From Desulfopila aestuarii DSM 18488 (GTDB lineage: Bacteria; Desulfobacterota; Desulfobulbia; Desulfobulbales; Desulfocapsaceae), in contig CAMBBS010000039.1 of NCBI GenBank assembly GCA_945863875.1, positions 1 to 41,076 of the forward strand: 41,076 nt of DNA, given 5' to 3'. Below are positions 13,471 through 32,996 of the stretch, in pieces. Below the pieces are notes generated by a model, which saw only the letters and a program-made list of their open reading frames with translations, was not told where the DNA came from and did no database searches. The position numbers and the translations under genes were made by a program. Each line of letters opens with the position of its first letter. Position 1 is the first letter of the stretch.

Positions 13471-14085
13471 AAATGATAAATGCCCAGTCGTTTCTTCAGC
13501 AGGGGGACAGCAACCGGGGCGGGCCGTGGCCGTCATCGTCACGGGGGCGAATGTCGATCGCTTCGTCGACCGTGTTGCCGCTCTCGGCACCCTGCGAGCC
13601 TATGAAACCGTGGATCTCTCGGCAACGGTCATGGATACGGTAACAGTCATTCATTTTTGCCGACGGTCAGCGGGTACAAGGGGCTGATTTCTTAATCGAG
13701 ATGACCAGCACCAAGGAGCATGCACTGCCCGAAGAGGTACGGTCGCGACGAGGTACAAAAAGAATATGACAGAGTGAAGCCCATGGTTGCAGGGGCCGCG
13801 GCGGCCAGATCGCAGCTTGAGGGCCAGGGCACCGTCTTTTGCAGGGCGCACATTTTCCGGAGAAATTACCGACATTAACAGCCGAATCGATCAGACAATC
13901 CGCTCCTCTGTCGCCAAAGCCATTCTGCCGAAGCCGGACCGGTTGTTAAAGCCCGGCCTCCTGATGTCTGTAGAACTCCTGAACAATCCACGCGATGTTG
14001 TCGTTATACCCGAGGAAGCCCTGATTCCGACGAATCACTGGAACAATTACTACAGCAGGATAGCGGAGACCCGGGCCAATGATTT
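13471..14085 (+). pseudogene. Remnant of RND efflux periplasmic adaptor (membrane fusion protein)
   Basis: Successive frames give parts of an HlyD/AcrA-type adaptor. One frame near 13550-13650 reads RVAALGTLRAYETVDLSATV, the usual V.A.GTL.A.E.V.L.A.V block. The next frame reads FADGQRVQGADFLIEM (lipoyl-like half motif). A third reads VQKEYDRVKPMVAGA in the hairpin. The last, from about 13845, reads TFSGEITDINSRIDQTIRSS and then LLKPGLLMSVEL, which is the beta-barrel and membrane-proximal region. At least three frame changes and a deletion of part of the hairpin and lipoyl domain are needed to join them. It cannot encode a working adaptor. It directly precedes the RND pump remnant. Confidence 0.8.
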
Positions 14086-15790
14086 TATCCGATATTGATC
14101 CGCCGCTTGTCCCAGTTGAGACCATTTATCCCGGCGCTTCGGTGAACGTGGTCGAAACGCAGATTACCCTGCTCATTGAAGAACGGATTTCAGGCGTTGA
14201 AGACATGCCGTTTATCGCGTCAACCAGTGAAGACGGCCGCTCCCTGGTGACCAACGAATTTATTGCCGGACGGGACGTCGACGGGGCGGCCAACGATATC
14301 CGAGACCGGGTTGACGGAATCCTCGGGGACCTGCCAGTTGAAGCAGACCCGCCTGAAATAGAGAAAGTCAATTACAACGACGAGGTCCTCATGTGGCTGA
14401 ATTTGACCAGTGACCGCATGACCGTGCCGGCGTGACCGATTATGCCGATCGATATCTGGTCGACTATTTCTCTGTGCTAAGATGAGTTGCTACGGGCAGC
14501 CTCGAATCGGCCAAACGTGTTTTCACGGTGCGTGTCAAGAAGGCCTTTCAAATGGCGGAAGAATTCCAAAGTCTGGCCTTGAAACGCGGCGTCGATGAAC
14601 CCATCATTCGTCCGATCGCCATCGGCCCGGTTGTTCTGGCCATCTTTCTTTTCTCGGCAGTGTTCGGGCCACGCTGGTACCTGCCGAGACCGTGGCGACT
14701 GTTCTTGTCGCTACGTTTATCGCTCTGAACGCGCTTGGTTTTGCGGTCATCGCCACCTCGCTGGTGCTGAAAAATGTCATGAGCTGCCCGGTGGCGGTTT
14801 TCGGAGTTTTTGTCCTGCTGCCCGGCGCAACACTATGGCTGTTCGGGCAGATACCTTCCGAATACGCGCCCAAGGAAGACCGCGGAACCTTTTTTGCCCT
14901 GATCACCGGGCCTGAGGGTGCGGCCTTCGACTATGAATATATGGACGAAGTCAAGTGACGTCTCATGCCGTTTATTCAAAGTAATGAAGCCACGCGCATG
15001 CTGGTGCGTGCGCCGCGGACTTTTACAAATATTGCAAATTTCAACTCCGGCATTGCCCTTTTCGTTCTCAACGGCTGGAGCCTACGACGCCAGGCCTGGG
15101 CAAAGATGCAGGAGGTGCGCGGCCGGTGCGCAGGGGTTCGGGGAGGCTATTGAAAAACCGTGGCAGTTCGTCATCGGCGTCAGCACCTATCAGGCGCTGG
15201 CACAGTGGCGGGACATCCTCCTGCAACAGATCGAAGCGTATAATCCCGGCCTGATCGACAGTGGCTGAAAGTATAAGGAAACTAAACCCCAGGTGCAGGT
15301 GAACATCGATTATCATCGTGCGGCGGAAATGGGTGTGACCATCGGTGTAATCGGCCGGACCCTGGAAACGATGCCCGGCTCCAGCCGGGTAACGACCTGA
15401 ATAAATGAAGACGTTGCGTACGATGTGGTACCCGAAGGTGAGCGTGATGCGCAGCGTACCCCTGCCGGCCTGCAGAATATTTATGTACGTTCCTCGCGCA
15501 GCGGCGATCTTATTCCGCTTAGTAACCTCGTTACCCTGGAGGAATTTGCCGATTCGAGTGCACTCGACAGATATAACCGGGGCAGAGGGATAACCCTGCA
15601 GGCTAATCTGGCTGGGGGACTGGTACTCGGCAACTCTTTTTCCCCTGTTTGTCGTGCCGATTGCCGGCCCGCAATCCCAGCGAACCAGTTTGCCCGGTTC
15701 AGTGGCGGGCGTCTGCACCAGGAAGAGTCGATGTCGGATGAAGTTGACGGGCGAGGTTGAACGTGGCAGTGCCGGGTTGGAAAGTACTTG
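14079..15790 (+). pseudogene. Remnant of RND multidrug efflux pump (AcrB-like)
   Basis: Several frames match pieces of an RND inner-membrane transporter in order. The first reads MILSDIDPPL then YPGASVNVVETQITLLIEER and, further on, DGRSLVTNEFIAGRDVDGAA (porter domain PN1). Near 14860 LFGQIPSEYAPKEDRGTFF is the post-TM7 segment. From 15160 fragments include FVIGVSTYQALAQWRDILL, INIDYHRAAEMGVT-like sequence, GRTLETMPGSSRVTT and DLIPLSNLVTLEEFADSS. Near 15640 LFPLFVVP is the C-terminal end. Frameshifts, in-frame stops and large deletions (TM1, most of TM2-6 and TM8-12) are evident. In the first fragment the starter MILSDI is joined directly to DPPL, which in intact pumps lies after TM1, so TM1 has been deleted cleanly. 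Confidence 0.85.
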
Positions 15791-15896: not shown

Positions 15897-16343
15897 GTGA
15901 AAAAAAATGACGTCCCCCAGCATAGCGGCCTGCTTTCTGGCAACCGCGAAGTCAATTACGCCGTCGATGTGGACGGCCGTTATATCCTTGAGTCGAGTGT
16001 CGGCTGGGAGGCAAAGAATATTGCCCTGCGTCAGGCCTGGGAGGCGATCGCTGACGAGTTGACTGTGGTCCTTGCCGAGATCAAGGACGGGAAAAAGAGT
16101 GCGCTGGCCTATCATATGGTGAAAAACCAGATGGATCCGGCGCTGCTCAGCCAATACTCCGGTGTTGCCCGCTGGCGGATTAAACGGCACCTGAAACCGG
16201 CGGTATTCGCCGGACTTCGTCCAGCCGATGTAGTGCCCTATGCAGAGCTGTTCGGTATCAGTGTCGATGAACTGCGTTTTGTTCCGGAAGAACTGATTTC
16301 TCCACTGGCCGGGCTGGATCAGGTTGAGGCTGATAATTCGTGA
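15897..16343 (+). CDS. HTH-like protein of the acyl-carrier cluster, unknown function
   Basis: 148 residues from a GTG at 15897; no better start is seen and the ribosome binding site is weak. The first half contains DVDGRYILESSVGWEAKNIA. The second half looks like a helix-turn-helix or XRE-type fold: MDPALLSQYSGVARWRIKRH, then LKPAVFAGLRPADVVPYAEL and FGISVDELR. It could be a cluster regulator or a small structural partner. Its stop overlaps the GTG of the BtrH-like gene (GTGA at 16340-16343), which strongly suggests translation coupling and a shared role. Not recognised from any characterised pathway. Confidence 0.7.
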   Translation: MKKNDVPQHSGLLSGNREVNYAVDVDGRYILESSVGWEAKNIALRQAWEAIADELTVVLAEIKDGKKSALAYHMVKNQMDPALLSQYSGVARWRIKRHLKPAVFAGLRPADVVPYAELFGISVDELRFVPEELISPLAGLDQVEADNS

Positions 16344-17344
16344 AAATAAACTTTCCCCATCGTCAGTTCGCCCATTGCGAGAGCGGCGTGACCGCCAACC
16401 TGCTCAATTATCATGGTTTTCCCTGCTCCGAGGCGATGGCCTTCGGCATCGGCGGCGGGCTGTTTTTTGCCTATGTGCCTTTTGTCAAAATTAATTTTCT
16501 TCCACTGACTACCTATCGCATCGGGCCGGGCAGTATTTTTGCCAAGGCAACCAGAAGACTCGGCATCAAGGTGATAAAAAAGAAGTTCGGCAGCCCCGAG
16601 TCCGCGGAAAACGAGCTCGACCGACTCCTCGAGGCGGGACGTCCGGTCGGAGCACAGACCGGGGTGTTCTGGCTGCCTTTTTTTCCACCGGCCTACCGGT
16701 TTCACTTTAACGGTCATAATCTGGTGGTCATTGGTAAAGAGGGGAGCGATTATCTGATCAGCGATCCAATTTTCGAAGAGACGGTGCGTTGCCCGGCGGC
16801 TGATCTGCGCAAGGCGCGCTTTGCCAAGGGGGCGCTGGCGCCAAAGGGAAGAATCTACTATATCGAAAAGATGCCGGTCCACTTCAACCTGCCGAAGGCG
16901 ATTGAGTCCGGCATCCGCGATGTTTGCCGGGTGATGTTGAAAGTTCCTTTGCCGCTGCTCGGCGTGCGCGGCATTCGTCTGCTGGCGCGGCAACTGGCCA
17001 AGTGGCCGGACAGGTTTGGCGAGAAACAGAGCCTGCTGCATCTCGGTCATGTCATCCGTATGCAGGAGGAAATTGGTACCGGCGGCGCGGGTTTTCGCTT
17101 TATTTACGCGGCCTTTTTGCAGGAGGCTGCCGGGGTGCTGGAAAACGACAGATTGATTGATCTGTCAAGGCGCTGTACCGCGGTGGGTGACCTGTGGCGT
17201 GACTTCGCCCTGCTCGCCTCCCGGGTCTGCAAGGGCCGGGCTGTGGGGCAGGATTCCTTTGACCATCTGGCAGCACTGCTTTCTTCCTGCGCGGTACATG
17301 AGGAAGCGCTTTTCGAGGATCTGCGGTCGGCACTTGTCCGCTGA
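16340..17344 (+). CDS. BtrH-like acyltransferase / C39-like cysteine protein
   Basis: 334 residues from a GTG overlapping the previous stop. Residues about 1-145 match the BtrH N-terminal domain: HCESG with Cys13, FNGHNLVVIG with His126, and SDP with Asp142, together a papain/C39-like Cys-His-Asp set. Residues about 150-334 resemble the DUF4872 domain that usually accompanies it. BtrH of butirosin biosynthesis moves an acyl group from an acyl carrier protein to an aminoglycoside amine. An acyl carrier protein is encoded in this same cluster, so ACP-to-acceptor acyl transfer is the natural hypothesis. No export signal is seen. The gene is followed 19 bases later by an ABC transporter. Confidence 0.82.
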   Translation: MKINFPHRQFAHCESGVTANLLNYHGFPCSEAMAFGIGGGLFFAYVPFVKINFLPLTTYRIGPGSIFAKATRRLGIKVIKKKFGSPESAENELDRLLEAGRPVGAQTGVFWLPFFPPAYRFHFNGHNLVVIGKEGSDYLISDPIFEETVRCPAADLRKARFAKGALAPKGRIYYIEKMPVHFNLPKAIESGIRDVCRVMLKVPLPLLGVRGIRLLARQLAKWPDRFGEKQSLLHLGHVIRMQEEIGTGGAGFRFIYAAFLQEAAGVLENDRLIDLSRRCTAVGDLWRDFALLASRVCKGRAVGQDSFDHLAALLSSCAVHEEALFEDLRSALVR

Positions 17345-17363
17345 TTATAACTGGCGAGAACCG

Positions 17364-18125
17364 ATGATCGTATCTGCCGAAAAAAATGCAATCACCACCG
17401 AGAACCTGGTAAAGGTGTATGCCCATGCCGATCGTCCGGCGCTCGACGGCCTGAACCTCAATGTTGTCCGGGGCAGGATTTTCGGCCTGCTTGGCCCGAA
17501 CGGCGCGGGGAAGACGACGGCGATCTCCATTCTCTCCACCCTGCTGCAACCGACCGCCGGCAAAGCGACCGTTCTTGGTTATGACGTGGGGAAGCAGGCG
17601 AAGGCCATTCGCTGCCTGATCGGCTTTGTACCGCAGGACATCGCTCTGTATCCAAGTATGACGGCAAGGGAAAACCTGTGCTATTTCGCACAAGTTCTGC
17701 GTATCCCGGCGCGGCGGGTCAACGAACGGGTGGGCGAATGTCTTGAGCTCGTCGGTCTCACCGACTGCGCTGATCGACGGGTCGCCACCTATTCCGGAGG
17801 TATGAAACGCCGGACTAACCTGGCGGTCGGTATCCTGCATGAACCGGAGATTCTTTTTCTCGACGAACCGACAGTCGGCATCGACGCGCAGTCACGCAAT
17901 CTCATCCTCGAGCGTCTCATCGAATTGAAGGGCGCCGGAATGACACTTTTTTACACGACGCATCATATGGAAGAAGCGCGGCAGCTCTGTGACGAAATCG
18001 CCATTGTCGATTCGGGCCGGGTGATTGCCGGCGGCACACCGGAACAGCTGGTCGGCGCTGCCGCCGATTGTGACAATCTTGAAGAATTATTTCTGTCCCT
18101 GACCGGAAAACAGGTGCGCGACTAA
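17364..18125 (+). CDS. ABC transporter ATP-binding protein (ABC-2 exporter type)
   Basis: 253 residues from the ATG at 17364; an upstream extension in the same frame overlaps the BtrH-like gene and looks like non-coding shadow. Walker A is GPNGAGKTT, the Q-loop lies in GFVPQDIALYPSMT, the signature is YSGGMKRR, Walker B is EILFLDEPT, and the H-loop is YTTHHMEE. The sequence fits the DrrA/CcmA/NodI group that pairs with an ABC-2 permease and exports drugs, glycolipids or polysaccharides. The permease gene starts 8 bases downstream. Confidence 0.93.
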   Translation: MIVSAEKNAITTENLVKVYAHADRPALDGLNLNVVRGRIFGLLGPNGAGKTTAISILSTLLQPTAGKATVLGYDVGKQAKAIRCLIGFVPQDIALYPSMTARENLCYFAQVLRIPARRVNERVGECLELVGLTDCADRRVATYSGGMKRRTNLAVGILHEPEILFLDEPTVGIDAQSRNLILERLIELKGAGMTLFYTTHHMEEARQLCDEIAIVDSGRVIAGGTPEQLVGAAADCDNLEELFLSLTGKQVRD

Positions 18126-18133
18126 GGACCGAT

Positions 18134-19453
18134 ATGTTGTTACTGGTGCATGTTAAAAAAGAACTGCTGCTGCTCCGCCGCGACCGTGCCGGCCTGCTGG
18201 TTCTCTTTGTCATGCCGATGCTGCTGGTGCTGGTGCTGTCGCTCATTCAGGACAACCTGTTTCGCGCCACAGGCGGGACGGCAACCCGAGCGCTCTTTGT
18301 CAGTTTCGATGAGGGCGCGTTGGCGGCGGAGCTGGCGGCGAATCTGGAGGCCACCGGCGCACTCGAACTGGTAAGGGAAGTTGCCGGAGACAAGCTCAAT
18401 GTCGACACCGCCCGGCAAAGGGTTTTTGACGGGGAGTACCAGTTTGCCATTATTGTTCCGGCAGGGTTCAGCGCGGCCATAAATGCGGCCGCACAGGCAG
18501 CGGTCGAGGCATCATTTCGCCAAGAGGCGCCGACACAACCGACCGGTCAGCTGACCGTTTACTTTGATCCGACCGTACGTGGTGTCTATCGGACGGCGGT
18601 CACCAGCGCCCTGCAGCGAGGCCTTCTCGGCCTGGAAATTGCGCGAAAGAGCGAGGCCTTCGGGCGGTTGCTGCCCCTGGAACTGCAGCGCGGTATTCAA
18701 GAGCAGCTGGCGGCCTATGCGCCGGCCGGGCTGCAGCTGAACATGCCGCATCTCAGTTCTGACTGGAGTGGACAGACGTTGATTGAACTGAGCGAAGAGT
18801 CGGCCTATCCGGATAAATATACGACACTGCCGACCTCAGTGCAGCAGAACGTCCCGGCCTGGACCCTGTTCGGCATGTTCTTTATTGTCATTCCACTGGC
18901 GGGGACGCTGATCCGCGAGCGTCAAGAGGGGACGCTGACCCGGCTGATGACCATGCCGGTTGCCAACGCTACCTTGCTGTTCGGTAAGGTTTTTGCTTAT
19001 CTTGGTGTCTGTCTCGTGCAGTTTGCCTTGATGCTGCTGGTCGGTAAGTGTATTCTGCCGATTCTCGGTACCCCGGTACTCGAACTCGGTTCGGCGCCGT
19101 TTGCCCTGCTGGCCGTTGCCGTCAGTGCGGCATTGGCGGCCTGCGGCTACGGCATTCTCGTCGGAGTCCTGGCGCGTAGTTACGATCAGGCGTCAACCTT
19201 CGGCGCGGTGTCGGTGGTGCTCGCCGCGGCAATGGGCGGGGTGATGGTCCCGGTCTATGTGATGCCCCGGGTGATGCAGGGCCTCAGCGTGATTTCGCCT
19301 CTGGGCTGGGGCCTAGAGGCGTTTCTCGATATCTTTGTCCGGAACGGCAATCTGGCCAGTGTACTGCCCCGTGTCGTGACTTTGGCCGCCTTTTTTCTGG
19401 TATGTATGGCCTGCGCCCTGTTGATGTTTCGACGTTGGCGGCGAGGTCTTTAA
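18134..19453 (+). CDS. ABC-2 type permease
   Basis: 439 residues. One N-terminal membrane helix (about residues 17-38, LLVLFVMPMLLVLVLSLI) is followed by a large, probably extracytoplasmic domain (about 40-240) and five further C-terminal helices (about 248-435). This is the ABC2_membrane_3 layout seen in DrrB-like and YhhJ/YbhR-like exporters. AAGGA lies 6 bases before the ATG, which is 8 bases after the ATPase gene. It should form the membrane part of an exporter for the product of the surrounding acyl cluster. Confidence 0.9.
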   Translation: MLLLVHVKKELLLLRRDRAGLLVLFVMPMLLVLVLSLIQDNLFRATGGTATRALFVSFDEGALAAELAANLEATGALELVREVAGDKLNVDTARQRVFDGEYQFAIIVPAGFSAAINAAAQAAVEASFRQEAPTQPTGQLTVYFDPTVRGVYRTAVTSALQRGLLGLEIARKSEAFGRLLPLELQRGIQEQLAAYAPAGLQLNMPHLSSDWSGQTLIELSEESAYPDKYTTLPTSVQQNVPAWTLFGMFFIVIPLAGTLIRERQEGTLTRLMTMPVANATLLFGKVFAYLGVCLVQFALMLLVGKCILPILGTPVLELGSAPFALLAVAVSAALAACGYGILVGVLARSYDQASTFGAVSVVLAAAMGGVMVPVYVMPRVMQGLSVISPLGWGLEAFLDIFVRNGNLASVLPRVVTLAAFFLVCMACALLMFRRWRRGL

Positions 19454-19494
19454 ATTGATCGGCCTGGGTGGGACAGGTGTTGCTTGGAGAAGAG

Positions 19495-19767
19495 ATGGAC
19501 GATAATTTGGAACGCGAGCTGGTGGCCATGGTCATCGACCTCTGTAACGTCGAGGACATTTTGCCGGAGGATGTCCCCCTTGATGTCCCGATGATTGGTC
19601 CGGAATCGCCGCTGGGCCTGGATTCGCTCGATGCCCTTGAGGTAGTGGTGGCTGTGCAGAGGAGCTATGATGTGCGGATCGGCGGAGAGAATTCCAGTCG
19701 GGAGATCTTGCAGTCCTTCACCACCCTGGCCGATTATATTCGTCTGAAGCAGCAAGAAGATGCCTAG
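19495..19767 (+). CDS. Acyl carrier protein-like phosphopantetheine-binding protein
   Basis: 90 residues from the ATG at 19495, which has GGAGA about 6 bases upstream; an in-frame GTG at 19468 is less likely. The 4'-phosphopantetheine site is GLDSLDALE with Ser44. The protein is acidic and helical, as expected for an ACP or PCP. A housekeeping fatty-acid ACP would sit among fab genes; here it is between an ABC exporter, a methyltransferase-like gene and a ketosynthase-III-like gene, so it is likely dedicated to this pathway. Its 3' end overlaps the next gene by 8 bases. Confidence 0.9.
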   Translation: MDDNLERELVAMVIDLCNVEDILPEDVPLDVPMIGPESPLGLDSLDALEVVVAVQRSYDVRIGGENSSREILQSFTTLADYIRLKQQEDA

Positions 19768-20587
19768 GAGGACGCCTGGTAAATGGCCGAGGCTCTTCGA
19801 ATTTGAAGATCAGAGATGGCTGCCCTGCATATTGCGCAACCAGATGACCGACGCTCTTCGCTATCTGATTGTCGAGATGAAAATATATGATCCGATTATC
19901 CCGGAATTTCTCTGGGTTATGCAGAAATCACGGACAAAAAAGGTGGTCGATCTCTGTTCCGGCGGGACAGGGCCCTGGCACTACCTGCTTGGGGCAATTG
20001 GTGATCTGGAAGAGGTTGTCGAACGGGTTACCCTGACCGATTTATATCCCAATGAAAACGCCTTAAAGACCCTGGCGGCGCATCATCACCTCTTTGCCTA
20101 TACAGCCGATTCGGTAAATGCCCTGGATATTGATGTAAAGCTGGAAGGGGTTCGAACGATATTTTCCAGTTTCCATCATTTTGACACAGCTGAAGCCATC
20201 TCCATCCTTCAAGATGCAGTAGATAAAAAGATGCCTATCTGTGTTTTTGAATTTACCGAACGGCGGCTGGTTAATCTCCTCATTACCCCGATATCCATGG
20301 TTGTTTTATTTGCCAAGCTCCTGTGCGCCAGGCCGCTGACCATGTCGAAGTTCCTTTTTTGCCTGGTTTTGCCTGTCGTACCGCTGATCTATATCTGGGA
20401 CAGCGCTGTTTCGCATCTGCGCAGTTATAGCCGTGAGGAACTACAAGCACTCGTCGGCTGCGTAGACAATGCAGGGACCTTTGTCTGGGAGATAGGGCAA
20501 AGCACCTCACCCAAAACCCCCCTGAAGAACACCTTCCTTATCGGCTATCCGAAAAAACGGCCGGCGGCCACAAATAAATCGGCTTAG
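19760..20587 (+). CDS. SAM-dependent methyltransferase-like membrane-associated protein
   Basis: 275 residues. VVDLCSGGTGPW (about residues 62-73) is the SAM-binding motif I of class I methyltransferases, followed by LTDLYPN (motif II, acidic residue) and SSFHHFD (about 134-140). A hydrophobic stretch of about 45 residues (about 170-215), NLLITPISMVVLFAKLL then FLFCLVLPVVPLIYIW, suggests membrane association or two membrane helices, unusual for a plain methyltransferase. It overlaps the ACP gene by 8 bases, so it is translationally linked. It may act on the ACP-bound or exported product; the substrate is unknown. Confidence 0.7.
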   Translation: MPRRTPGKWPRLFEFEDQRWLPCILRNQMTDALRYLIVEMKIYDPIIPEFLWVMQKSRTKKVVDLCSGGTGPWHYLLGAIGDLEEVVERVTLTDLYPNENALKTLAAHHHLFAYTADSVNALDIDVKLEGVRTIFSSFHHFDTAEAISILQDAVDKKMPICVFEFTERRLVNLLITPISMVVLFAKLLCARPLTMSKFLFCLVLPVVPLIYIWDSAVSHLRSYSREELQALVGCVDNAGTFVWEIGQSTSPKTPLKNTFLIGYPKKRPAATNKSA

Positions 20588-21732
20588 ACGACGGTCAGTT
20601 GCATATAACACATTGAAAAACGGCCACTCTCCGGAATGAAGCAGAGCAGCTTCTGCCCTTTTTGCAGCCGTCCCGAGTGAAACAGTTCTTCAAGGATAAT
20701 GTAGATCGAGGCCGATCCGGTATTTCCCTTGGTGGCCAGATTGGTAAACCAGCGCTCAAAGGGGATGCCGAAACCGATCTTCTCCATTCGTGCCTGCAGC
20801 TCGGCACGAAAATAGTCAGAGGAATAGTGGGGCAGGAACCAGTCGAATTCGTCCGCCTGCAGCTTATGTTTGGCAATCAGTCGCGGCAGGGTGCGCTCGA
20901 CGGCGGTGGTGATAATCTCCCGGTTGAGTAACTTGACGTCCTGTTTGATCAACAGGCTGTCCCTGTCGATACTTCCGGCAAGAGACGCCTGCTCGCGCCA
21001 GCCGCGCAGGGAGCCGTCTTCGAGCTTAATGGCTCCTGCGTACATGCAGGTTTCCATGGTGTTGGCAAAGGAAAGAAGATCAAGCCAGTCGATGCGCAAG
21101 GAGAGTCCCGTGTCGGTCGGTCGGTTGGTGAGAAAGGCGGCACCGGCACCGTCGGAGAGCATCCAGCGTAAAAAGTCGGCTTCAAAGGCGATGGCCGGCT
21201 GCTCTTTGATCCAATCGGCGTGCTGCTGGTTGACCACTCCGCAGAGACTGGCGCGGAGAAACGAGGAGGCCAGCTCGGAGCCCGTGGCCACGGCGTTGCT
21301 GCTTTGGCCGGAGGCGATGCTCATATAGGCATATTTCATGGCACTCATGCCGGCGGTGCAAATTCCGGCCGCAGTCATCACTTCGCAGGGCTGTCCTTTT
21401 AATTCGCCATGGACCATCGATCCGTGGCCGGGCATGAGCTGGTCCGGGGAAGAGGTGCCGCAGCAAAGGCATTCAATCTGATCCGGTGTAAAGTTGGGCC
21501 GTGGCCGTAGGCGCCGGATCGACTCGGCCGTCAACTGGGCGTTGGTATGGGTTGTTGCCCCGGTCGCCGGGTCGATGGCATAGTAGCGGCTTTTGATGCG
21601 GTTATTGCGCAAAATGATCTTTCGCGTGCGTGAAGGGAGTTGATTGACCATGCCGAGGAGCGCTTCCATCTGTTCGTCGGTGACCGGAGCATTGGGCAGG
21701 AAGGTGGCGATGTCGGTGATATAAACGGGCAT
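20584..21732 (-). CDS. 3-oxoacyl-ACP synthase III-like (KAS III/thiolase fold)
   Basis: 382 residues, longer than housekeeping FabH (about 320). The catalytic triad is in place: Cys125 in AAGICTAGM, His302 in FLPHYSSDYF, and Asn337 in KGNTGSAS. The two thiolase halves are recognisable (CLCCGTSSPDQLMPGHG and the C-terminal KGNTG region). Such FabH-like proteins condense or transfer acyl groups between CoA and ACP. It lies in the acyl-carrier cluster but on the opposite strand, and its TAA overlaps the TAG of the converging methyltransferase gene within four bases (20584-20587). AAAGG lies upstream of the ATG. Likely supplies or extends the chain on the cluster's ACP (inference). Confidence 0.88.
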   Translation of the reverse strand: MPVYITDIATFLPNAPVTDEQMEALLGMVNQLPSRTRKIILRNNRIKSRYYAIDPATGATTHTNAQLTAESIRRLRPRPNFTPDQIECLCCGTSSPDQLMPGHGSMVHGELKGQPCEVMTAAGICTAGMSAMKYAYMSIASGQSSNAVATGSELASSFLRASLCGVVNQQHADWIKEQPAIAFEADFLRWMLSDGAGAAFLTNRPTDTGLSLRIDWLDLLSFANTMETCMYAGAIKLEDGSLRGWREQASLAGSIDRDSLLIKQDVKLLNREIITTAVERTLPRLIAKHKLQADEFDWFLPHYSSDYFRAELQARMEKIGFGIPFERWFTNLATKGNTGSASIYIILEELFHSGRLQKGQKLLCFIPESGRFSMCYMQLTVV

Positions 21733-21738
21733 GTGTTC

Positions 21739-23031
21739 TTATACCTTTGCTGCTCGATGTCCTTCGGCCAGAAGGACTGCATAGCGATTGTAGAAGAGCT
21801 CTTCATCAAGCCGGGTCGGCAGCACGGCATTGGTCAGCGTGTAATAGTCGAGGTCGTGAATACTGATCTGCTCGCGCAGCTGCCGGTGGAGCCGGGTGCC
21901 GGGCAGGGGCGTGAGAACGGTGTGCATCGGCAGGTCGATCTGTTGCTTTTTGACAAAGGCACCCAATTTATCGAACTGTTGCTCAGTGTAATCCGGCGAG
22001 ATGATAAAATCACCGACGATGGTCAATCCGAGCTGGTGCAGGATGTCGATGGCCTGCAGATTGCATCGGGTGGTGTTTTCCTTGTTCATCGCGCCCAGTG
22101 CCGTATCATCGATTTCCTCAAAGCCAACGACCACGGCGCGCAGGCCGATGTCCCGCCAGCGTTTCAGCAGTTCGGGATGCCGGACCACTGTATCCGAGCG
22201 CACATCGGCTAAAAATTGTTTTTTGATGCCAGCGGCTTCTATTGCATCGGCCAGTTTCAAGGCATGGCCGGGATTACCGAAGGTGTTGGCATCGACCAGG
22301 CGGATCACCGGGGTCTGCAGGCAGCCGATGGCGCGGATGACTGTTTCGCTGCTGGCGGTCAGGTATTTGCCGCCGGTCAGCGGCGCGATACAGCAAAAGG
22401 AACAGTCATAGGGACATCCGGCGGCGGAGACAACCAGACCGAGCTGCAGACCAAGGGTTTCCAGGGTGTAATGCGGACGATACTGGTCAACCAGGTCGTA
22501 GCGGGGAAGTTGCTGCTCTGGTAAATCGCTGCGGCTGAATGTGCGTTGCCGGTAGTGCAGCGGTGCTCCGGGACAGGTGGCGGCAACGCCGGGAATAAGC
22601 GGCTTTGCAACACCCGATGCTAAAGCGGTGACCAGTTCGCGCAGGCTCTGTTTGCCGAGGCCGATGACGATCCAGTCGATCATCTTCCGGTTGAAAAACT
22701 CAGGATCAGCCGAGGCATGCACGCCGCCGACGACGATTGTCGTCGGCAGGCTTTGTCTGATTTCGCCTGCCAGTTTAACGACGGTTTGTGCCTCGCAGGT
22801 CATGGCCGTCATGGCGACGAGGTCCGGTTTGAAGGCCTTTAACGCTGATTGCAGCCCGTCCGGCTTAACCTTAAGGTCGAGAATCCGCGTCTCGTGATCG
22901 CCGACATTGCCGGCCAGTACTTCCAGGGACAGGGGTTCGCCGCGAAAAATCTGTTTAATCGAGGTTATGCCATACCGTTCTTCGGGTATGGAACGTCCGC
23001 AATTCGGAGGATTGATGAAAAGTATCTTCAT
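21739..23031 (-). CDS. B12-binding-domain radical SAM protein
   Basis: 430 residues from the ATG at 23031; a TTG at 23058 would add nine residues but has no ribosome binding site. The N-terminal ~130 residues form a cobalamin-binding-type Rossmann domain (KILFINPPNCG, then VVGGVHASADPEFF), though the DxHxxG His ligand is not evident. The radical SAM domain has the CxxxCxxC motif at C206, C210 and C213 in GCPYDCSFCC. This layout fits the BchE/HpnP/HpnJ-like class, which methylate or rearrange unactivated carbons. It is 6 bases from the ketosynthase-like gene on the same strand, so the pair is an operon. Role in the cluster: probable carbon-centred tailoring of the acyl product. Confidence 0.88.
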   Translation of the reverse strand: MKILFINPPNCGRSIPEERYGITSIKQIFRGEPLSLEVLAGNVGDHETRILDLKVKPDGLQSALKAFKPDLVAMTAMTCEAQTVVKLAGEIRQSLPTTIVVGGVHASADPEFFNRKMIDWIVIGLGKQSLRELVTALASGVAKPLIPGVAATCPGAPLHYRQRTFSRSDLPEQQLPRYDLVDQYRPHYTLETLGLQLGLVVSAAGCPYDCSFCCIAPLTGGKYLTASSETVIRAIGCLQTPVIRLVDANTFGNPGHALKLADAIEAAGIKKQFLADVRSDTVVRHPELLKRWRDIGLRAVVVGFEEIDDTALGAMNKENTTRCNLQAIDILHQLGLTIVGDFIISPDYTEQQFDKLGAFVKKQQIDLPMHTVLTPLPGTRLHRQLREQISIHDLDYYTLTNAVLPTRLDEELFYNRYAVLLAEGHRAAKV

Positions 23032-24827: not shown

Positions 24828-26120
24828 TTATCTCCGATGTATAACATGGGTCGAACAAGAGATACACGGGTCGTAGGCCCGAACCAGCATCTCCAGCAGA
24901 TGGGTAATGGTCTCGGCAGATTCATGGGCGATGGTCGGAGCAAAAGCGCGCATGTCCGCCTCAAGGTTGGCAAGATTCTGGGCGGTCGGGATGACCATGT
25001 TGGCCGACAGGCATTTGCCGCGATCATCGTACTGGTATTCATGAAAGAGGATGCCCCTGGGTGCTTCAACGGCCCCTACTCCTGTTCCGGCACGATCCTT
25101 TATCTTCGTATGTTCTGTATCAGGCTGAATTCCCAGAACCAAAAGCGTCTGCAGAATTTTGCCGGCGTCTTCCAGGCAATGGATGCACTCCACCAGCTGG
25201 GCGATGGTGATCATGAAGGGTTTGTGGCAGGGATGCGGCAGGCCCAGCTCGTCTGCCGCCGTCTTGGCGCCATCGGTCAGCTGGTCATAGTTGTTGTTGA
25301 AGCGGGCCAGGGCTCCGGTCATGTATTCCGGCCGGTTCCACCTGGCATACTTGGCGGTGGAATAATCAACGACGTATTCTTTAATCACTTCCCTGTACTT
25401 GTCGCGGGATACCGATTCGTCGCGGTCGCTGGATAGAATTTCGCCGTCATAGAAAGCGTATCGGTTGGGATGGGTGAGGGAGACGTATTCGGTTTCCCGT
25501 TCCAGATGCGGCAGCTCTATCTTACGCAGAGTTCGTACGGTGTCGCGAAGGTCCTCCAGCCCCTGTGTCACTCGGTCTTGCATCTCCGCGAGGTGGGCGA
25601 CTTCTAGCGTGAAGGTGAAGCCTCCCACCGTCATGGCGATCGGATGGGTGTGGCGTCCGACCACCAAGGCACTCAGATCATAGCCTAGTTTTTTGAGTCG
25701 CATGGCCCGCCGGACCATGTCCGGTTCCCTTTCCACCAGCGGCAAGATGCTCGAAACACCGAAGAAGTCCGGGCCGGCCAGAAAATAGATGTGGAGAATA
25801 TGGCTGCTGAGTATTTCTCCGTGGTAGGCCAGGCGTCGTAACAGCTTGGTCTGCCGGCTGACCTTCACTCGCAGAGCCGACTCGGTGGCTTTCAGGGCGG
25901 CGCATTTGTGGCTCACCGCACAGATGCCGCAGACCCTTGAGGACATGTGGATCACCTCGTTAAAGTGGTGACCGCGAAGAAAGGCTTCGAAAAACCTCGG
26001 TGCTTCGACCACCGAAAAACGGAGCTGCTGCAGTATTCCGTCTTTGATTTCCGCGGTGATATCGCCGTGCCCTTCGACTCGGGTGACATGGTGGACATTG
26101 ATGGAATTATGCTGTGCCAT
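24828..26120 (-). CDS. hydA: [NiFe] hydrogenase large subunit, group 3b (sulfhydrogenase alpha)
   Basis: 430 residues. The nickel ligands are in RVCGICAVSH (C64, C67) near the N-terminus and DPCISCSTH (C419, C422) near the C-terminus. Five residues follow His425 and are presumably removed by a maturation protease. The N-terminal RVEGHG motif is also present. Size and sequence fit the cytoplasmic NAD(P)-linked group 3b enzymes (sulfhydrogenase/bidirectional type) that interconvert H2 and NAD(P)H and can reduce sulfur. It is the last gene of the hydBGDA operon and overlaps hydD by 14 bases. No maturation (hyp) genes are in the window. Confidence 0.93.
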   Translation of the reverse strand: MAQHNSINVHHVTRVEGHGDITAEIKDGILQQLRFSVVEAPRFFEAFLRGHHFNEVIHMSSRVCGICAVSHKCAALKATESALRVKVSRQTKLLRRLAYHGEILSSHILHIYFLAGPDFFGVSSILPLVEREPDMVRRAMRLKKLGYDLSALVVGRHTHPIAMTVGGFTFTLEVAHLAEMQDRVTQGLEDLRDTVRTLRKIELPHLERETEYVSLTHPNRYAFYDGEILSSDRDESVSRDKYREVIKEYVVDYSTAKYARWNRPEYMTGALARFNNNYDQLTDGAKTAADELGLPHPCHKPFMITIAQLVECIHCLEDAGKILQTLLVLGIQPDTEHTKIKDRAGTGVGAVEAPRGILFHEYQYDDRGKCLSANMVIPTAQNLANLEADMRAFAPTIAHESAETITHLLEMLVRAYDPCISCSTHVIHRR

Positions 26121-26925
26121 CGGAAGATTCCTCCCCCTTGCCGACTCGGCCTGTGTTGTTGTATAGGGAAAATCGGGCTATGATTTCCTTCCCGGTGAGC
26201 CGGTTATTTCGGGCAACCTCAGCCATTATCGGATGGAGCTTTTCCCCGAAGAGTGCCCGGACGGGTGCTTCAAGGTTGGCATCGTCGATCAGACCACGAC
26301 ATCCCCGGCAGGCGTCGCCGAAGGCGGTGCAGATGGCATTGCAGCCGCACCGGGTCACCGGTCCGAGGCAGACCATGCCCTTTTCATGGACACAGAGGAT
26401 GTCGTTGCGTTTGCACTCGACGCAGACCGGCTGATTGGATGGCGTATAGGCCTGGCGGGTGAGAATCCGCTTGAAGACCGTTTCAAACTCCGGCAGGCTC
26501 ACCGGACAACCAAGAATCTGATAATCGACATTGACCACATCGGCGATCGGCCGGGCGGGAATGGTGTCGATATGCTCGCCGTATTCGCTGTAGACCAGTG
26601 CCAAAAGCTCGTTCATAGCCCATTTGTTCTTCAGCGCGTTATGGCAGCTGATGCTGGCGCAGGTTCCTAAAGAGACGACAATCTCGGCTTTATCGCGGAT
26701 GGTCTTGATTCGCTCTATATCTTGTTGCCGGGTGATGGACCCCTCGCAAAAGGCGATATCATACTCTTCGCTTATCTCGGACATCACCTCCCGCCAGGCG
26801 ACCACCTCGACATGGGCAAGGAGATCGAAAAGTTTCTCGTCCAGCTCGAGGATGGACAGCTGACAGCCCTCACAGCAGGCGAAATCGAAAAAGGCCACCC
26901 TCGGTTTTCTCGCAAACGGCATCAT
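26107..26925 (-). CDS. hydD: [NiFe] hydrogenase small subunit, group 3b (sulfhydrogenase delta)
   Basis: 272 residues. The N-terminal cluster-binding motif is FACCEGCQ (C17/C18, C21), followed by LGTCASISCH, VNVDYQILGCPVSLPEFE, and a C-terminal cysteine-rich part (CVECKRNDILC, CLGPVTRCGCNAIC, CRGCRG) expected to hold further [4Fe-4S] clusters. No twin-arginine signal is present, so the enzyme is cytoplasmic. It passes electrons between the NiFe site in HydA and the HydB/HydG module. It overlaps hydG by 4 bases (ATGA) and hydA by 14. Confidence 0.92.
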   Translation of the reverse strand: MMPFARKPRVAFFDFACCEGCQLSILELDEKLFDLLAHVEVVAWREVMSEISEEYDIAFCEGSITRQQDIERIKTIRDKAEIVVSLGTCASISCHNALKNKWAMNELLALVYSEYGEHIDTIPARPIADVVNVDYQILGCPVSLPEFETVFKRILTRQAYTPSNQPVCVECKRNDILCVHEKGMVCLGPVTRCGCNAICTAFGDACRGCRGLIDDANLEAPVRALFGEKLHPIMAEVARNNRLTGKEIIARFSLYNNTGRVGKGEESSDGTA

Positions 26926-27827
26926 CGTTTCTCCTCTTTGGCCGCGTCCTGAGCCTTTTCCGGTACCCAGGCTTCCCCGGCTTCTTTACGGGTCTGAAGG
27001 TCGGAATACCGGAAAACCGGGCCGTCCCGGCAGACATAGAGATCATTGAGCTGGCAATGGCCGCATTTGCCGATGCCGCATTTAAAACGCCTTTCCAGGG
27101 AAAAATAGATGTTCTCCCCGGATAATCCTTTTTGCAAGAGCTCCATGGCGACAAAGCGAAACATCACCGGCGGACCACAGATGGCGGCGATGGTGTTGTC
27201 GGGGGCAAGATCCATCTCCCGGAGCGGTTCCGTGACCACGCCGGTCCGCCCTTGCCAGGTCTTATCCGGTTGGTCGACAGTGAGGTAGAAGTCCAGATGA
27301 GGGTTCTCAACCCATTGCGCCGTCTCTTTTTGGAACAGCAGAGTCGACGGAGTTTTCGCCCCGTAGACAACCTGTAGCCGGCCATAGTCTTTTTGTTTAT
27401 CGCAGATGAAATGGATCAGGCTGCGCAGGGGGGCGATGCCGATGCCGCCCGCCACCAGCAGAACGTTCTTTCTCCTCATTTGATCGATAGGGAAAAAGCC
27501 CTGCCCGTACGGCCCGCGAATGCCGACCCAGTCGCCGGAGGAGAGCGCGGTGATTGCCCGGCTGACATTTCCTTTCGGTTGAACACAGATACTAAAACTC
27601 TCGGATCTGGTAGGCGACGAGCAGAGAGAGAGAGGGGCCTCGCCATAGCCGAAGACCGACACCTGAACGAACTGGCCGGGAGAGTGGTGAAGAGGTCGTC
27701 CGTCTTCGAGAACCAGTTCAATAGTTGTCGCGGAAGACTCACGGTGCGTGCTTATCACTTTCGCCCGCTCCGGCATGTATGAGATAATGCTGATGTCAGC
27801 GGCCTGTTGGCGATCCGGCGCAGCCAT
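26922..27827 (-). CDS. hydG: Hydrogenase diaphorase subunit, FAD/NAD(P)-binding (sulfhydrogenase gamma)
   Basis: 301 residues, ferredoxin-NADP reductase-like. The FAD site is in APLSLCSSPTRSESF (about residues 64-78), the NAD(P) site is in LLVAGGIGIAPLRS (about 123-136) and ICGPPVMFR (about 216-224), and a [2Fe-2S] cluster is formed by C250, C255, C258 and C266. The subunit connects the hydrogenase to NAD(P)H. The C-terminal tail is rich in Lys, Glu and Ala. It begins right where hydB ends and overlaps hydD by 4 bases. Confidence 0.92.
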   Translation of the reverse strand: MAAPDRQQAADISIISYMPERAKVISTHRESSATTIELVLEDGRPLHHSPGQFVQVSVFGYGEAPLSLCSSPTRSESFSICVQPKGNVSRAITALSSGDWVGIRGPYGQGFFPIDQMRRKNVLLVAGGIGIAPLRSLIHFICDKQKDYGRLQVVYGAKTPSTLLFQKETAQWVENPHLDFYLTVDQPDKTWQGRTGVVTEPLREMDLAPDNTIAAICGPPVMFRFVAMELLQKGLSGENIYFSLERRFKCGIGKCGHCQLNDLYVCRDGPVFRYSDLQTRKEAGEAWVPEKAQDAAKEEKR

Positions 27828-28877
27828 TTATCCCTCCATTTTTGCGGCAGCGATGAGCTGATTGGTCACATCGACGATATTAATATCGACAGTGCAGGCG
27901 CGGCTGCATCGACCGCAGCCGGTGCAGTAGGGACGGCCGAACTGCCTGAAGAGGTAAAGAAATTTTCGCTGCCATCGGTGTCTGACCCGCTGCCACCGCT
28001 CTCCCCGAAAATTATGTCCGCCGGCGACCATGGCAAAGTCGAGGAGCTGGCACGAATCCCAGGTGCGGTATCGAGTGCCGCCGCGGAGGTCGGGATCGAG
28101 TTCGTCGATCATGTCGAAGCAGAAACAGGTCGGGCATGCGGTGTTGCAGGAGCCGCAGCTGTAGCATCGTTTGGCGGTTTCCTTCCAGGTCGGCGTCAAG
28201 CCCCCCGTTTCGAGAATATCGGCGATTCTTTCTAAGGGTGCATCGAACTTTGCCCTGATCCGTTCGACCTTTTGTTGCCGCCAACGTTTTGCGGCCGCAA
28301 GCTCTTCTTCGCCGGCATTGCTGGTATTGGCTTTTTGCAGGAGTTGTCTGCCTCTATCGGAATGGATTTCTGCCAGGTAGCCATGATCGATCGGGGTGAG
28401 AAAAAGGTCGCAGGGGATGCGGGCGGCATCCGTGCCGACGCTGCTGCAGAAACAGTAGGCATCAGGCTGACAATCGAGACCGATGATGGTGGCCCGCTTG
28501 CGGTTGGCGCTCCAGCGCATCTCTGCCGGGGGGTGGGCGTAGGCGTGGTCCAGGGCATCAATACCGGCGAGATCGCAGGGATGCACCCCGAGCAGTACGA
28601 ATGGCGACGCGTCTACATGGAGACGCAGTCTGGGAGGTTTGTCGAAAGTGAAGCTGAAAAGCTTTTCCTTTGGCGAGGCCAGGATTTTTTTGGGCGGGAG
28701 GGTTGTCGTCTTGTAGCCGGGAGCGAAATCTTCCGCCCGTTGCAGCCGGCTAAAGAGATAATACCCAGGCTGGTCACCCCGCTCCCTTGGGCCAATGACC
28801 GTTTGAACGGCCATAATTGCCTCGAGAAACATGTTGAAGTCCGGGCCTGAAATGATTTGAATGCCCCTTGGCGTCAT
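27828..28877 (-). CDS. hydB: Hydrogenase 4Fe-4S electron-transfer subunit (sulfhydrogenase beta)
   Basis: 349 residues. The C-terminal third carries two ferredoxin motifs: C238-x2-C241-x2-C244-x3-C248-P and C318-x2-C321-x2-C324-x3-C328; the second lacks the usual following proline (CTVDIN). The N-terminal region is the HydB/AsrA-like domain (LGVHPCDLAGIDALD, CFCSSVGTD). It carries electrons between HydG and HydD. GGAG lies close (2-3 bases) to the ATG. It is the first clearly recognisable gene of hydBGDA, which is divergent from the thi operon. Confidence 0.9.
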   Translation of the reverse strand: MTPRGIQIISGPDFNMFLEAIMAVQTVIGPRERGDQPGYYLFSRLQRAEDFAPGYKTTTLPPKKILASPKEKLFSFTFDKPPRLRLHVDASPFVLLGVHPCDLAGIDALDHAYAHPPAEMRWSANRKRATIIGLDCQPDAYCFCSSVGTDAARIPCDLFLTPIDHGYLAEIHSDRGRQLLQKANTSNAGEEELAAAKRWRQQKVERIRAKFDAPLERIADILETGGLTPTWKETAKRCYSCGSCNTACPTCFCFDMIDELDPDLRGGTRYRTWDSCQLLDFAMVAGGHNFRGERWQRVRHRWQRKFLYLFRQFGRPYCTGCGRCSRACTVDINIVDVTNQLIAAAKMEG

Positions 28878-29089: not shown

Positions 29090-29345
29090 CGCCGTCTTCC
29101 CCGTTAAGTCCAGACAGAAAAGCTCTGCTCACTGCCGTCATTCCGGACTTGACCCGGAATTCACTTTAAAGAGGCGGATGAGCAGCAATCTCCCCTCTTT
29201 GCTCTATGATTTTCAATATCCGTGCCACCTCACTTTAAGCCTCGCAGTTTTTGTTGCTCCGCTGCGTATTGCCGACAATTGTCACGGGGCAATCGGTAAA
29301 CATGCGTTGACAAATGCGCTCGAGTCGAATAAGAAAGTTGGTATC

Positions 29346-29430
29346 GCTAGGGGTGCAGTGCATGCTGAGAGGAGTCTATCCAACCCTATGAACCTGATCC
29401 GGGTAATGCCGGCGAAGGGAAGCGGCCTGC
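29346..29430 (+). promoter_or_regulatory. TPP riboswitch (THI element)
   Basis: The conserved core is present: GGGGTGC at the start, CTGAGAGG in the P2-P3 side, then ACCCTATGAACCTGATCC and GGGTAATGCCGGCGAAGGGA. This is the thiamine pyrophosphate aptamer. It is followed by an intrinsic terminator (29468-29506) and then thiS, so binding of TPP should stop transcription of thiSGH when thiamine is plentiful. Confidence 0.95.
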
Positions 29431-29467
29431 TTGGAACCGAGGTTTCGGAGCACGAAGAATGGCCAGA

Positions 29468-29506
29468 CGCCGCTTTCCCGTTGTATGGGGAGGCGGCATT
29501 TTTTTT
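29468..29506 (+). terminator. Rho-independent terminator of the TPP riboswitch
   Basis: GCCGC with TTTCCC at 29469-29479 pairs with GGGGAGGCGGC at 29487-29497, followed by eight T. Its place between the aptamer and thiS makes it the expression platform. Confidence 0.88.
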
Positions 29507-29529
29507 GCTTTTTGCCAACAGGAAGAGCT

Positions 29530-29733
29530 ATGGTAATTGCGCTACGTATCAACGGCCAGGAGGAGCAGCTGGAAAAGTGCACAATTGAAGGCCTGGTCGC
29601 CGTCAAGGGGCTGGTTGCCGCTTCCCTGGTGGTCGAACATAACGGCCGGATCGTCAAACAGACCGATTGGCACACTGTATTGCTCAGACACGGCGATGTC
29701 CTTGAATTGTTAAATTTTGTCGGAGGAGGTTGA
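29530..29733 (+). CDS. thiS: Sulfur carrier protein ThiS
   Basis: 67 residues from the ATG at 29530, with AGGAAG about 5 bases upstream; longer frames start inside the terminator. It has the ubiquitin-like ThiS pattern (ALRINGQEEQLEKC, HGDVLELLNFV) and ends in Gly-Gly-Gly rather than the usual Gly-Gly, with the thiocarboxylate expected on the last glycine. It donates sulfur to the thiazole ring of thiamine with ThiG. thiG follows after 3 bases. Confidence 0.92.
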   Translation: MVIALRINGQEEQLEKCTIEGLVAVKGLVAASLVVEHNGRIVKQTDWHTVLLRHGDVLELLNFVGGG

Positions 29734-29736
29734 ACC

Positions 29737-30507
29737 ATGCAGGATGAACAATTGATAATTGGTGGACACGGCTTTAGCAGCCGTCTGTTGACCGGTACGG
29801 GGAAATTTGCCGCAAAAAGCTGGATTCCAAAAATGCTTGCGGCAAGTGAATCGGAGATGATCACCGTGGCACTGCGGCGCATCGACAGTGGTGGCACCAA
29901 TGAAAATATCCTCGATTTTATACCGGATAATGTCGTGCTGCTGCCAAACACCTCCGGCGCCCGCACTGCCGAAGAGGCGGTGCGCATCGCCCGGATTGCC
30001 AGGGAGGCGGGCTGTGGCAACTTCATCAAGATCGAGGTAATCACCGATATGAAGTATCTCATGCCGGATAACTACGAAACGTTGCGGGCCACGGAGATTC
30101 TCGCCCGCGAAGGTTTCATCGTCCTGCCCTATGTCCTGCCCGATCTGACCCTGGCGAAAAAACTCGAAGATGCCGGTGCCGCCGCCATCATGCCCCTTGG
30201 CGCACCGATTGGCAGCAACCGAGGCCTCGAGACGAAGCCGCTGATCGCCCTGCTCATCGAGAATTGCCGGGTTCCAGTGGTGGTTGATGCCGGCATCGGC
30301 CGCCCTTCCCAGGCGGCGGAAGCGATGGAGATGGGCGCCGATGCGGTTCTGGTAAACACGGCCATTGCCACGGCGGAAGATCCGGCCTTGATGGGTCGTG
30401 CCTTCTCCCTGGCCGTGCAGGCCGGACGACTGGCCTATCTGGCGCGGATGGCCCTGGAGAGCCCGACCGCCCAGGCCTCGTCGCCGTTAACCGGCTTTCT
30501 CAACTGA
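29737..30507 (+). CDS. thiG: Thiazole synthase ThiG
   Basis: 256 residues, full length. Typical TIM-barrel features are visible: LLTGTGKF near the start, [33 protein letters not shown] with the lysine region of the Schiff base, [14 protein letters not shown], and [20 protein letters not shown] with AVLVNTAIA as phosphate-binding loops. It condenses deoxyxylulose phosphate, dehydroglycine and ThiS thiocarboxylate into thiazole. It is read in one message with thiS. Confidence 0.96.
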
Positions 30508-30526
30508 AGGGACGTGGGGAAAAATT

Positions 30527-31120
30527 ATGTCATTTTATCATGAAATCAAAAAGTACGCACATTTCGACTTTCAGTCATTTTTCGCCGGAGTCACAACGGA
30601 TCGGGTGGAGGCGGCGCTGGCTAAAGAAAAACTCTCGGAACAGGATTTTCTGGCCCTGCTCAGTCCTGCCGCCTCCGGTTCTCTGGAACAGATGGCGGCC
30701 AAGGCCCATCAACTGACCAGGCAGTATTTCGGCCATACCATCCAGCTGTTTATCCCCCTCTATATTTCTAATTTCTGTGCCAATCTCTGTGTCTACTGCG
30801 GCTTTCATCGGGGCAATGCAATCAGCCGAAAAAAGCTCAGTCTGGCGGAAATTGAGGTGGAGGCCAAAGCGATCGCCGCCACCGGCATGCGCCATCTGTT
30901 GCTCCTGACCGGGGAGGCGCCGGGCGTCACGCCCATCGACTATCTCGAAGATGCCGTTTGGCTGCTGAAGAAATATTTCGCCTCGGTCTCCATCGAGATC
31001 TTTCCGCTCGATGAAGACGATTATCACCGGCTGCGGCTGGCCGGGGCCGACGGCTTGACGCTCTATCAGGAGGTCTCTTGGTTGATCTTAAATATTGTTT
31101 ATTCAATTACAGGCACTTAA
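30527..31120 (+). pseudogene. thiH: thiH (tyrosine lyase, radical SAM) truncated by an integrated element
   Basis: The first ~183 residues match ThiH: YGF-like start, C84-x3-C88-x2-C91 in CANLCVYCGF for the [4Fe-4S] cluster, and GLTLYQEV at the end. Intact ThiH is about 370 residues. After about position 31075 the frame continues for 14 unrelated, AT-rich codons (SWLILNIVYSITGT) and stops. Base composition drops sharply at the same point, followed by a terminator, a repeat array and mobile-element-type genes. The second half of thiH is not in the window and probably lies beyond the right end of the element. ThiH makes dehydroglycine from tyrosine; this copy lacks the C-terminal part of the barrel and should be inactive. 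Confidence 0.9.
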
Positions 31121-32658: not shown

Positions 32659-32759
32659 ACCCTTTTTCTGTGGAAAGGTGGCGGTGTACCCTATGGGGGC
32701 CAGCCTTGATCAGAAATATTTTGATCCAAAATACATAGACTTTAAATTGAGGTGCAACA

Positions 32760-32975: not shown

Positions 32976-32996
32976 ATGGGCCGTGCTGTCTTTTTT
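32959..32996 (+). terminator. Intrinsic terminator
   Basis: GACAGC (32959-32964) pairs with GCTGTC (32985-32990), with an inner ACGGC/GCCGT pairing, followed by TTTTTT. It overlaps the last codons of the 71-residue gene. Confidence 0.82.

Follow-up and report, generated by a model that had tools for sequence, protein, structure and literature searches.

Gene content of the locus

The stretch of DNA analysed here (the window; G000:C39:1-41076, 41,076 nucleotides) belongs to a Desulfopila aestuarii genome of 4.69 Mb in 93 contigs. At positions 15897-23031 it carries eight genes, six on the plus strand convergent with two on the minus strand, which by their family matches belong to a known kind of cluster, the dialkylresorcinol (dar) cluster, in which the published aromatase gene darA is absent and a gene for a B12-binding radical S-adenosylmethionine protein (rSAM) lies in its slot. 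The open reading frame (ORF) list and the Pfam and NCBIfam matches give the following genes (aa, amino acids):

15897-16343, plus strand: DarG family, 148 aa; NF053536 at 140.6 bits (cut-off 70)
16340-17344, plus strand: DarH, BtrH-related acyltransferase; NF053550 at 467.9 bits (cut-off 300), Pfam BtrH_N and DUF4872
17364-18125, plus strand: ABC transporter ATPase; Pfam ABC_tran at 110.5 bits
18134-19453, plus strand: ABC-2 type permease; Pfam ABC2_membrane_3 at 104.4 bits
19468-19767, plus strand: acyl carrier protein (ACP), DSL serine present; PP-binding at 21.5 bits (cut-off 20.8)
19760-20587, plus strand: 275-aa protein, methyltransferase-like by a motif seen by eye only; local accessory gene
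20584-21732, minus strand: StlD/DarB-family ketosynthase (DarB); NF005293 at 587.9 bits (cut-off 450)
21739-23031, minus strand: B12-binding radical SAM protein (rSAM), 430 aa; Pfam B12-binding and Radical_SAM; in the darA slot

This layout had been described in a first-pass annotation made from the sequence without database searches, and both the eight convergent genes and the two stop/start overlaps, at 16340-16343 (first and second gene) and 19760-19767 (ACP and 275-aa gene), were borne out. Taken as a whole that annotation is partly supported. It had called the cluster uncharacterised, where DarB, DarG and DarH instead exceed the curated cut-offs of dialkylresorcinol families; its HTH-like first gene matched no helix-turn-helix model and falls in the DarG family; and what it took for a FabH-like loader or extender is instead a member of the ring-forming StlD/DarB ketosynthases.

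The dar accessory genes, namely those for DarG, DarH, the ABC exporter and the ACP, are all present. The DarG-family protein stays below the flexirubin-specific model NF053545 (132.9 bits, cut-off 170), and its gene corresponds by gene order to darD of Azoarcus (PMC3949708, Table 1). The ATPase is DrrA-like at 274.2 bits, under the family cut-off of 312.45, and the ACP is PRK09184-like at 53.1 bits, under the cut-off of 70. The ACP frame starts with GTG, with an alternative inner ATG possible at 19495; counted by eye on the translation, its serine is residue 53 from the GTG and residue 44 from the inner ATG, the latter agreeing with the Ser44 named earlier. An ACP that was the organism's only one had been put forward as a point against a dedicated pathway, and eight further PP-binding matches elsewhere in the host genome make clear that it is not the sole carrier. 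The DarB profile aligns over its full length with the StlD structure 5gk0 (558 bits), and residues C125, H302 and N337 of DarB are invariant in 44/44 aligned sequences, across loci with DarA and loci with rSAM.

The 275-aa protein, presented before as a methyltransferase-like membrane protein, matched no Pfam or NCBIfam model at E up to 1. Homologues occur in 13 of the 257 genomes of the host class that were surveyed, its own genome counted, and none was matched in 140 other loci (60 from the class and 80 named ones), so that it was rejected as a core member. The expectation that the genes keep together thus failed for this gene and held for the core: DarH was found in 104 of the 257 class genomes, DarB in 99 and both in 96, a co-occurrence beyond chance.

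The first-pass annotation had further proposed that an uncharacterised acyl product is built on the ACP, passed by the BtrH-like transferase to an amine-type acceptor, methylated and exported. A compact acyl-derived pathway is retained, with an ACP, probable BtrH-like acyl transfer and an ABC exporter; the amine acceptor, drawn from the name BtrH, is set aside in favour of the DarH identity, by which a ring hydroxyl (giving an ester) would be the expected acceptor. The BtrH_N domain, the ACP and the exporter would fit the amine proposal, but it is highly improbable, as the DarB, DarG and DarH models are over their cut-offs, the gene content follows the dar cluster described in PMC3949708, the methyltransferase-like gene is not conserved, and no genes for an amine product were noticed by eye in the ORF lists, in which no search was aimed at them.

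A radical SAM gene in the place of darA

DarA has been called the DAR-aromatase (PMC3949708); expression of darB with darA yielded dialkylresorcinol (PMC3992019), and darA mutants of Pseudomonas chlororaphis make no resorcinol (PMC6403133). At the studied locus darA is absent, and the best match to DarA in the same genome reaches only 8.5e-14 (contig C3), within the range of general flavodoxin-like proteins. Among 60 class loci fetched around DarH, 18 encode a weakly flavodoxin-like protein (about 303 aa) immediately 5' of darB, 25 carry a close relative of the rSAM in that slot, and in 17 the fetched stretch lacks DarB. The protein of about 303 aa is named DarA by gene order, the Dechloromonas and Azonexus loci matching the published order, and by its DarB neighbourhood; DarA also adjoins DarB in Photorhabdus (L167) and Pseudomonas loci. 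Of two such proteins one gave a weak Pfam match to Flavodoxin_4 (E 8e-4), and the PDB yielded one weak match (E 7e-4). What is new in the studied cluster is that the published aromatase gene is absent and a B12-binding rSAM gene stands in its slot. This suggests that the dialkylresorcinol ring, the cyclic half of yellow-orange pigments, is finished there by a different chemistry.

DarA and the radical SAM protein exclude each other

DarA, DarB and rSAM profiles were run over the 257 class genomes, with matches accepted at E 1e-60 or better for DarB, 1e-100 for rSAM and 1e-90 for DarA; the last threshold sits above a gap, the next matches (2e-24) being general flavodoxin-like proteins. DarB was found in 99 genomes, rSAM in 62 and DarA in 36, and DarA and rSAM occurred together in 0/257, counted on at most 6 to 9 scored candidates per genome, by which a weak second copy could escape. 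The 99 DarB genomes comprise 35 with DarA, 62 with rSAM, none with both and two with neither, so that 97/99 hold exactly one partner, and the two DarB matches with neither are fragments, one running from base 1 of its contig (G042) and one covering model positions 90-380 (G106). Conversely, DarB is present in all 62 rSAM genomes and in 35 of the 36 DarA genomes. Both types are found side by side within four genera (7+4, 2+3, 1+2 and 1+2 genomes). A hypergeometric P for the class counts takes no account of relatedness and is given no weight here.

The same pattern appears in a wider collection, scanned for its best 80 DarB loci, which form no census and include a few class members already fetched. 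These comprise 44 loci with DarA, one with a DarA fragment at a contig start, 32 with rSAM and three left unassigned; Geothermobacter hydrogeniphilus HR-1 (L119) is a named strain of the rSAM type. Searches of the whole genomes behind these best 80 loci found DarA in no genome of the rSAM type (0/32) and in one of the three unassigned ones (G289), and found rSAM in none of 48 genomes (the 45 of DarA type and the three unassigned); that the rSAM profile detects the protein where expected had been seen in the class survey. A darA gene hidden elsewhere in rSAM genomes was therefore rejected, as neither the class survey nor the named-genome searches found one.

Together with the studied locus, the 60 class loci and the best 80 named loci make a combined set of 141, of which 17 lack DarB within the stretch. 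The remaining 124, with four contigs counted twice, hold DarA in 62 cases, rSAM in 58, both in none and neither in four; without the four repeats the figures are 60, 56 and four neither of 120. All 120 partner genes (62 DarA and 58 rSAM) lie upstream of darB on its strand, the rSAM gene directly upstream in 58/58 rSAM-type loci, with a median gap to darB of 38 bases for DarA and 16 for rSAM. The gap is at most 250 bases in 119/120, the exception being a Neisseria locus with 924. A search of plasmids gave three Streptomyces matches for DarA, beside DarB matches.

Gene families were then compared between the types, using 31 families with at least six members over 151 loci (71 DarA-type and 80 rSAM-type, some genomes entering twice). 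A full and wide split by type was seen only for DarA (62 DarA-type and 0 rSAM-type loci) and rSAM (0 and 60), while DarB, DarH, the transporter genes, a ketosynthase, DarG and the ACP are common to both. Some families lean towards the DarA type (15 vs 4, 11 vs 0 and twice 6 vs 0) and others towards the rSAM type, among them a family of 468 aa (8 vs 0) and one of 354 aa (6 vs 0). Another rSAM-specific gene as the aromatase was rejected, as none of the leaning families spans its type in the way rSAM (60) and DarA (62) do.

Partner exchange on the DarB and DarH trees

For the trees, the repeated contigs L158, L176, L175 and L148 were left out, and L173 in addition for DarH, all of them within the 124. 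On the DarB tree (120 rows) a single clade takes in 59 of the 60 DarA-type rows, and the partner needs two changes, or three when L134, whose DarB belongs to the rSAM clade, is scored by the DarA carried elsewhere in its genome (G289); with L134 so scored, a topology with a single DarA clade is rejected (approximately unbiased test, p 4e-7, on a quick tree). Four changes are needed on the DarH tree, two of which well-supported branches make unavoidable; of its 115 rows some take their label from the genome instead of the locus, and several sit on long branches.

Individual loci illustrate these exchanges. In Desulfatitalea (L141) DarA adjoins a DarB of the rSAM clade; G186 (L197) has an arrangement known from rSAM-type loci (compare L113), with DarA replacing rSAM; and G029 and G031 carry a DarH of the rSAM lineage, their DarA-DarB pair lying on a separate contig or stretch. 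In G289 the DarA gene is on a different contig from DarB (L134); at L204:115-4959 it stands between genes that by eye are methyltransferase-like and AMP-ligase-like, followed by one that is ketosynthase-like.

DarB and its partner thus mostly travel as a cassette, yet each partner occurs with the other's companions, which speaks for equal function rather than for unrelated roles. The inheritance of the partner with DarB (two or three changes in 120 rows) also means that the DarB clades could make different rings. By such an account the rSAM-type clusters would stop at a ring that is non-aromatic or different in some other way, the two types would be parallel pathways sharing DarG, DarH and the exporter, and the rSAM would carry out some other change. 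The single clade of 59/60 DarA-type rows, by which DarB and partner mostly move together, speaks for it; this account is nonetheless improbable, because DarH of the rSAM lineage also serves the DarA-type genomes G029, G031 and G186, the two types have the same invariant catalytic residues in DarB, and DarA occurs with DarB of the rSAM clade. That the rSAM replaces DarA as such is well supported.

The radical SAM protein and its possible reaction

The CxxxCxxC [4Fe-4S] motif of the rSAM (C206, C210, C213) is invariant in 26/26 sequences. None of the NCBIfam models listed is matched above its cut-off; the closest is HpnR, the hopanoid C-3 methylase (178.8 bits, cut-off 650), and the model of BchE, the anaerobic oxidative cyclase, gives 102.5 bits (cut-off 481.35). 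An AlphaFold2 model (mean predicted local distance difference test score, pLDDT, 83.7) has TsrM, OxsB, AprD4, MgmA, TokK and CysS as fold neighbours in Foldseek, a set of mixed chemistry. AprD4 is not known to need cobalamin, and with it among the neighbours cobalamin binding by the rSAM is not assured, despite the Pfam B12-binding match. The sequence and the predicted fold would be compatible with a methylase or an oxidase alike and cannot tell them apart.

That the rSAM does DarA's job, aromatising the ring, is put at about even. In its fullest form the proposal is more tentative, falling a little short of even: the rSAM would be an aromatase that dehydrogenates, and perhaps decarboxylates, the cyclohexanedione made by DarB, as an analogous replacement of DarA that has entered and left the same slot more than once. 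The main rival is C-methylation, in which the rSAM would be a cobalamin-dependent C-methyltransferase acting on the DarB product or a side chain, aromatisation would be spontaneous or due to an enzyme encoded elsewhere, and the product would be a methylated dialkylresorcinol or cyclohexanedione. HpnR as the nearest curated model and the methylating neighbours TsrM, TokK, CysS and MgmA suggest as much. It is held to be unlikely, however, since the rSAM fills the aromatase slot and never occurs with DarA, though a methylase and DarA would be compatible; since no other gene of the loci runs through the whole rSAM type while being absent from the DarA type, so that any aromatase would need to be encoded away from the locus; and since DarA accompanies DarB of the rSAM clade, adjoining it at L141 and being present in the genome of L134.

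Besides the HpnR score, the methylases among the fold neighbours and the mostly joint inheritance of DarB and partner, several observations weigh against an aromatase in a dialkylresorcinol pathway. DarB stays under the stricter dialkylresorcinol model NF053539 (485.5 bits, cut-off 550), and three DarA proteins gave no NCBIfam match, so that the name DarA stands without a curated model. For one DarB locus (L172) neither partner was found, and more distant DarB relatives on plasmids of Prevotella and Pseudoalteromonas have neither adjacent per annotation. Two families lean towards the rSAM type more broadly than those named above, one of 222 aa (17 vs 2) and one of SPASM-like rSAM proteins (15 vs 4). 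Finally, COX1 was found in 3/36 DarA genomes vs 34/62 rSAM genomes of the class, which runs counter to an oxygen rationale for the replacement.

An arylpolyene-like partner cluster and the proposed pathway

Contig C9 of the same genome carries an arylpolyene-like cluster with ketosynthases, FabZ-like and FabA/ApeI-like proteins, LolA, a glycosyltransferase and an AMP-ligase-like protein; it also has several radical SAM proteins and what looks by eye like a reductase. Several of these proteins score under strict family cut-offs. Relatives of four of the C9 genes, with an identity of at least 35%, recur among the 60 class loci retrieved by way of DarH: those of a SPASM-like rSAM in 15/60 (47-84% identity), of a B12 rSAM in 10/60 (72-79%), of an acyltransferase-like gene in 9/60 (46-68%) and of a ketosynthase in 7/60 (82-85%).

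The C9 cluster also holds a U32-peptidase-like protein and a methyltransferase (L016:6164-8121), relatives of which (81% and 63%) lie just upstream of rSAM-DarB in L081. The U32 proteins UbiU and UbiV are oxygen-independent hydroxylases, which makes anaerobic ring hydroxylation conceivable for the U32-like protein.

Overall, the studied locus may be read, with somewhat more confidence than doubt, as half of a divided pathway to an arylpolyene-dialkylresorcinol pigment in which the rSAM replaces DarA as aromatase. DarB would join two acyl thioesters and close a cyclohexane-1,3-dione ring; the rSAM, in place of the flavodoxin-like DarA, would oxidise this ring by removing two hydrogens, giving a 2,5-dialkylresorcinol; DarH would move the arylpolyene acyl group that the C9 cluster makes from an ACP to a ring hydroxyl, giving an ester; and the ABC transporter would take part in export.

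Oxygen, distribution and implications

Oxygen as the cause of the choice between DarA and rSAM within the class was rejected, COX1 being commoner in rSAM genomes, and cytochrome bd, found in 226/257 class genomes, is too widespread to inform. Across broad lineages, the named rSAM-type loci come from groups that we take to be mostly anaerobic, and the DarA loci from groups that are presumably mostly aerobic, including Pseudomonas and cyanobacteria; this association does not go beyond correlation, and for many metagenome records the lineage given by NCBI is uncertain, six rSAM rows entered as Myxococcota deriving from records named only Deltaproteobacteria.

In tetrapyrrole synthesis, HemN and BchE replace oxygen-using enzymes. 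If the proposed pathway is right, a radical SAM enzyme would, much like these replacements, aromatise a ring derived from acyl chains, and the range of dialkylresorcinol pigments or signals would take in Desulfuromonadia, Syntrophia and further lineages assumed here to be anaerobic. An rSAM family that in the class always accompanies DarB (62/62) would gain a testable function, with a read-out of -2 Da or +14 Da, and genome-mining rules that require darA would overlook rSAM-type clusters.

Other features of the window

Upstream of the cluster, at 13787-15760, pieces resembling by eye an RND-type efflux pump lie in different frames and look like a decayed gene; one piece of 118 aa matches ACR_tran at 76.7 bits, over part of the 1021-position model. 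Four minus-strand genes at 24828-28877 resemble, by eye, a cytoplasmic NiFe hydrogenase operon. At 29339-31120 a thiamine pyrophosphate (TPP) riboswitch (69.3 bits) precedes a thiG-like gene, followed by a thiH-like frame that matches Radical_SAM and ends early at 197 aa. Five frames tested at 32101-40180, including ones of 557 and 545 aa, gave no Pfam match at E 0.001, and this region next to the short thiH-like frame is possibly a mobile or phage-derived stretch. A tRNA was not found in the window.

Comparison with known systems

StlD (structure 5gk0) is the isopropylstilbene ketosynthase of Photorhabdus, and the full-length alignment with the DarB profile likens the two enzymes; a Photorhabdus genome (L167) has DarA next to DarB. 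Unlike the studied cluster, the Photorhabdus locus shows no match for DarG, DarH or the exporter, and its aromatase is of the DarA type.

The closest published likeness is in the arcuflavin dar cluster of Azoarcus sp. BH72, which in Table 1 of PMC3949708 comprises darB, darD, the BtrH-like darE, the ABC genes darF and darI and the ACP gene darC, so that DarB, a DarG-like protein, a BtrH-like DarH, an ABC ATPase, a permease and an ACP stand together as they do here. Its arylpolyene genes lie in loci separate from dar, and for its pigment an ester of a polyene acid and a resorcinol is predicted (PMC3949708). It differs in having darA beside darB, along with darJ, darK and PHD/PIN-like genes (PMC3949708). 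The flexirubins of Chitinophaga and Flavobacterium are similar in that a resorcinol made with darA and darB is esterified with an arylpolyene acid, and differ in belonging to Bacteroidota and having darA, with no rSAM partner mentioned in the portion of the source available (PMC3992019). Nor was an rSAM in a dialkylresorcinol cluster found in the literature as searched by title and start of abstract, a search that mostly left subscription papers outside.

Finally, the locus rSAM shares B12-binding and radical SAM domains and the CxxxCxxC motif with HpnR, BchE and other B12-binding radical SAM enzymes, and is set apart from them by its scores below all the listed cut-offs and by the company it keeps, DarB being encoded in every one of the class genomes that carry it.

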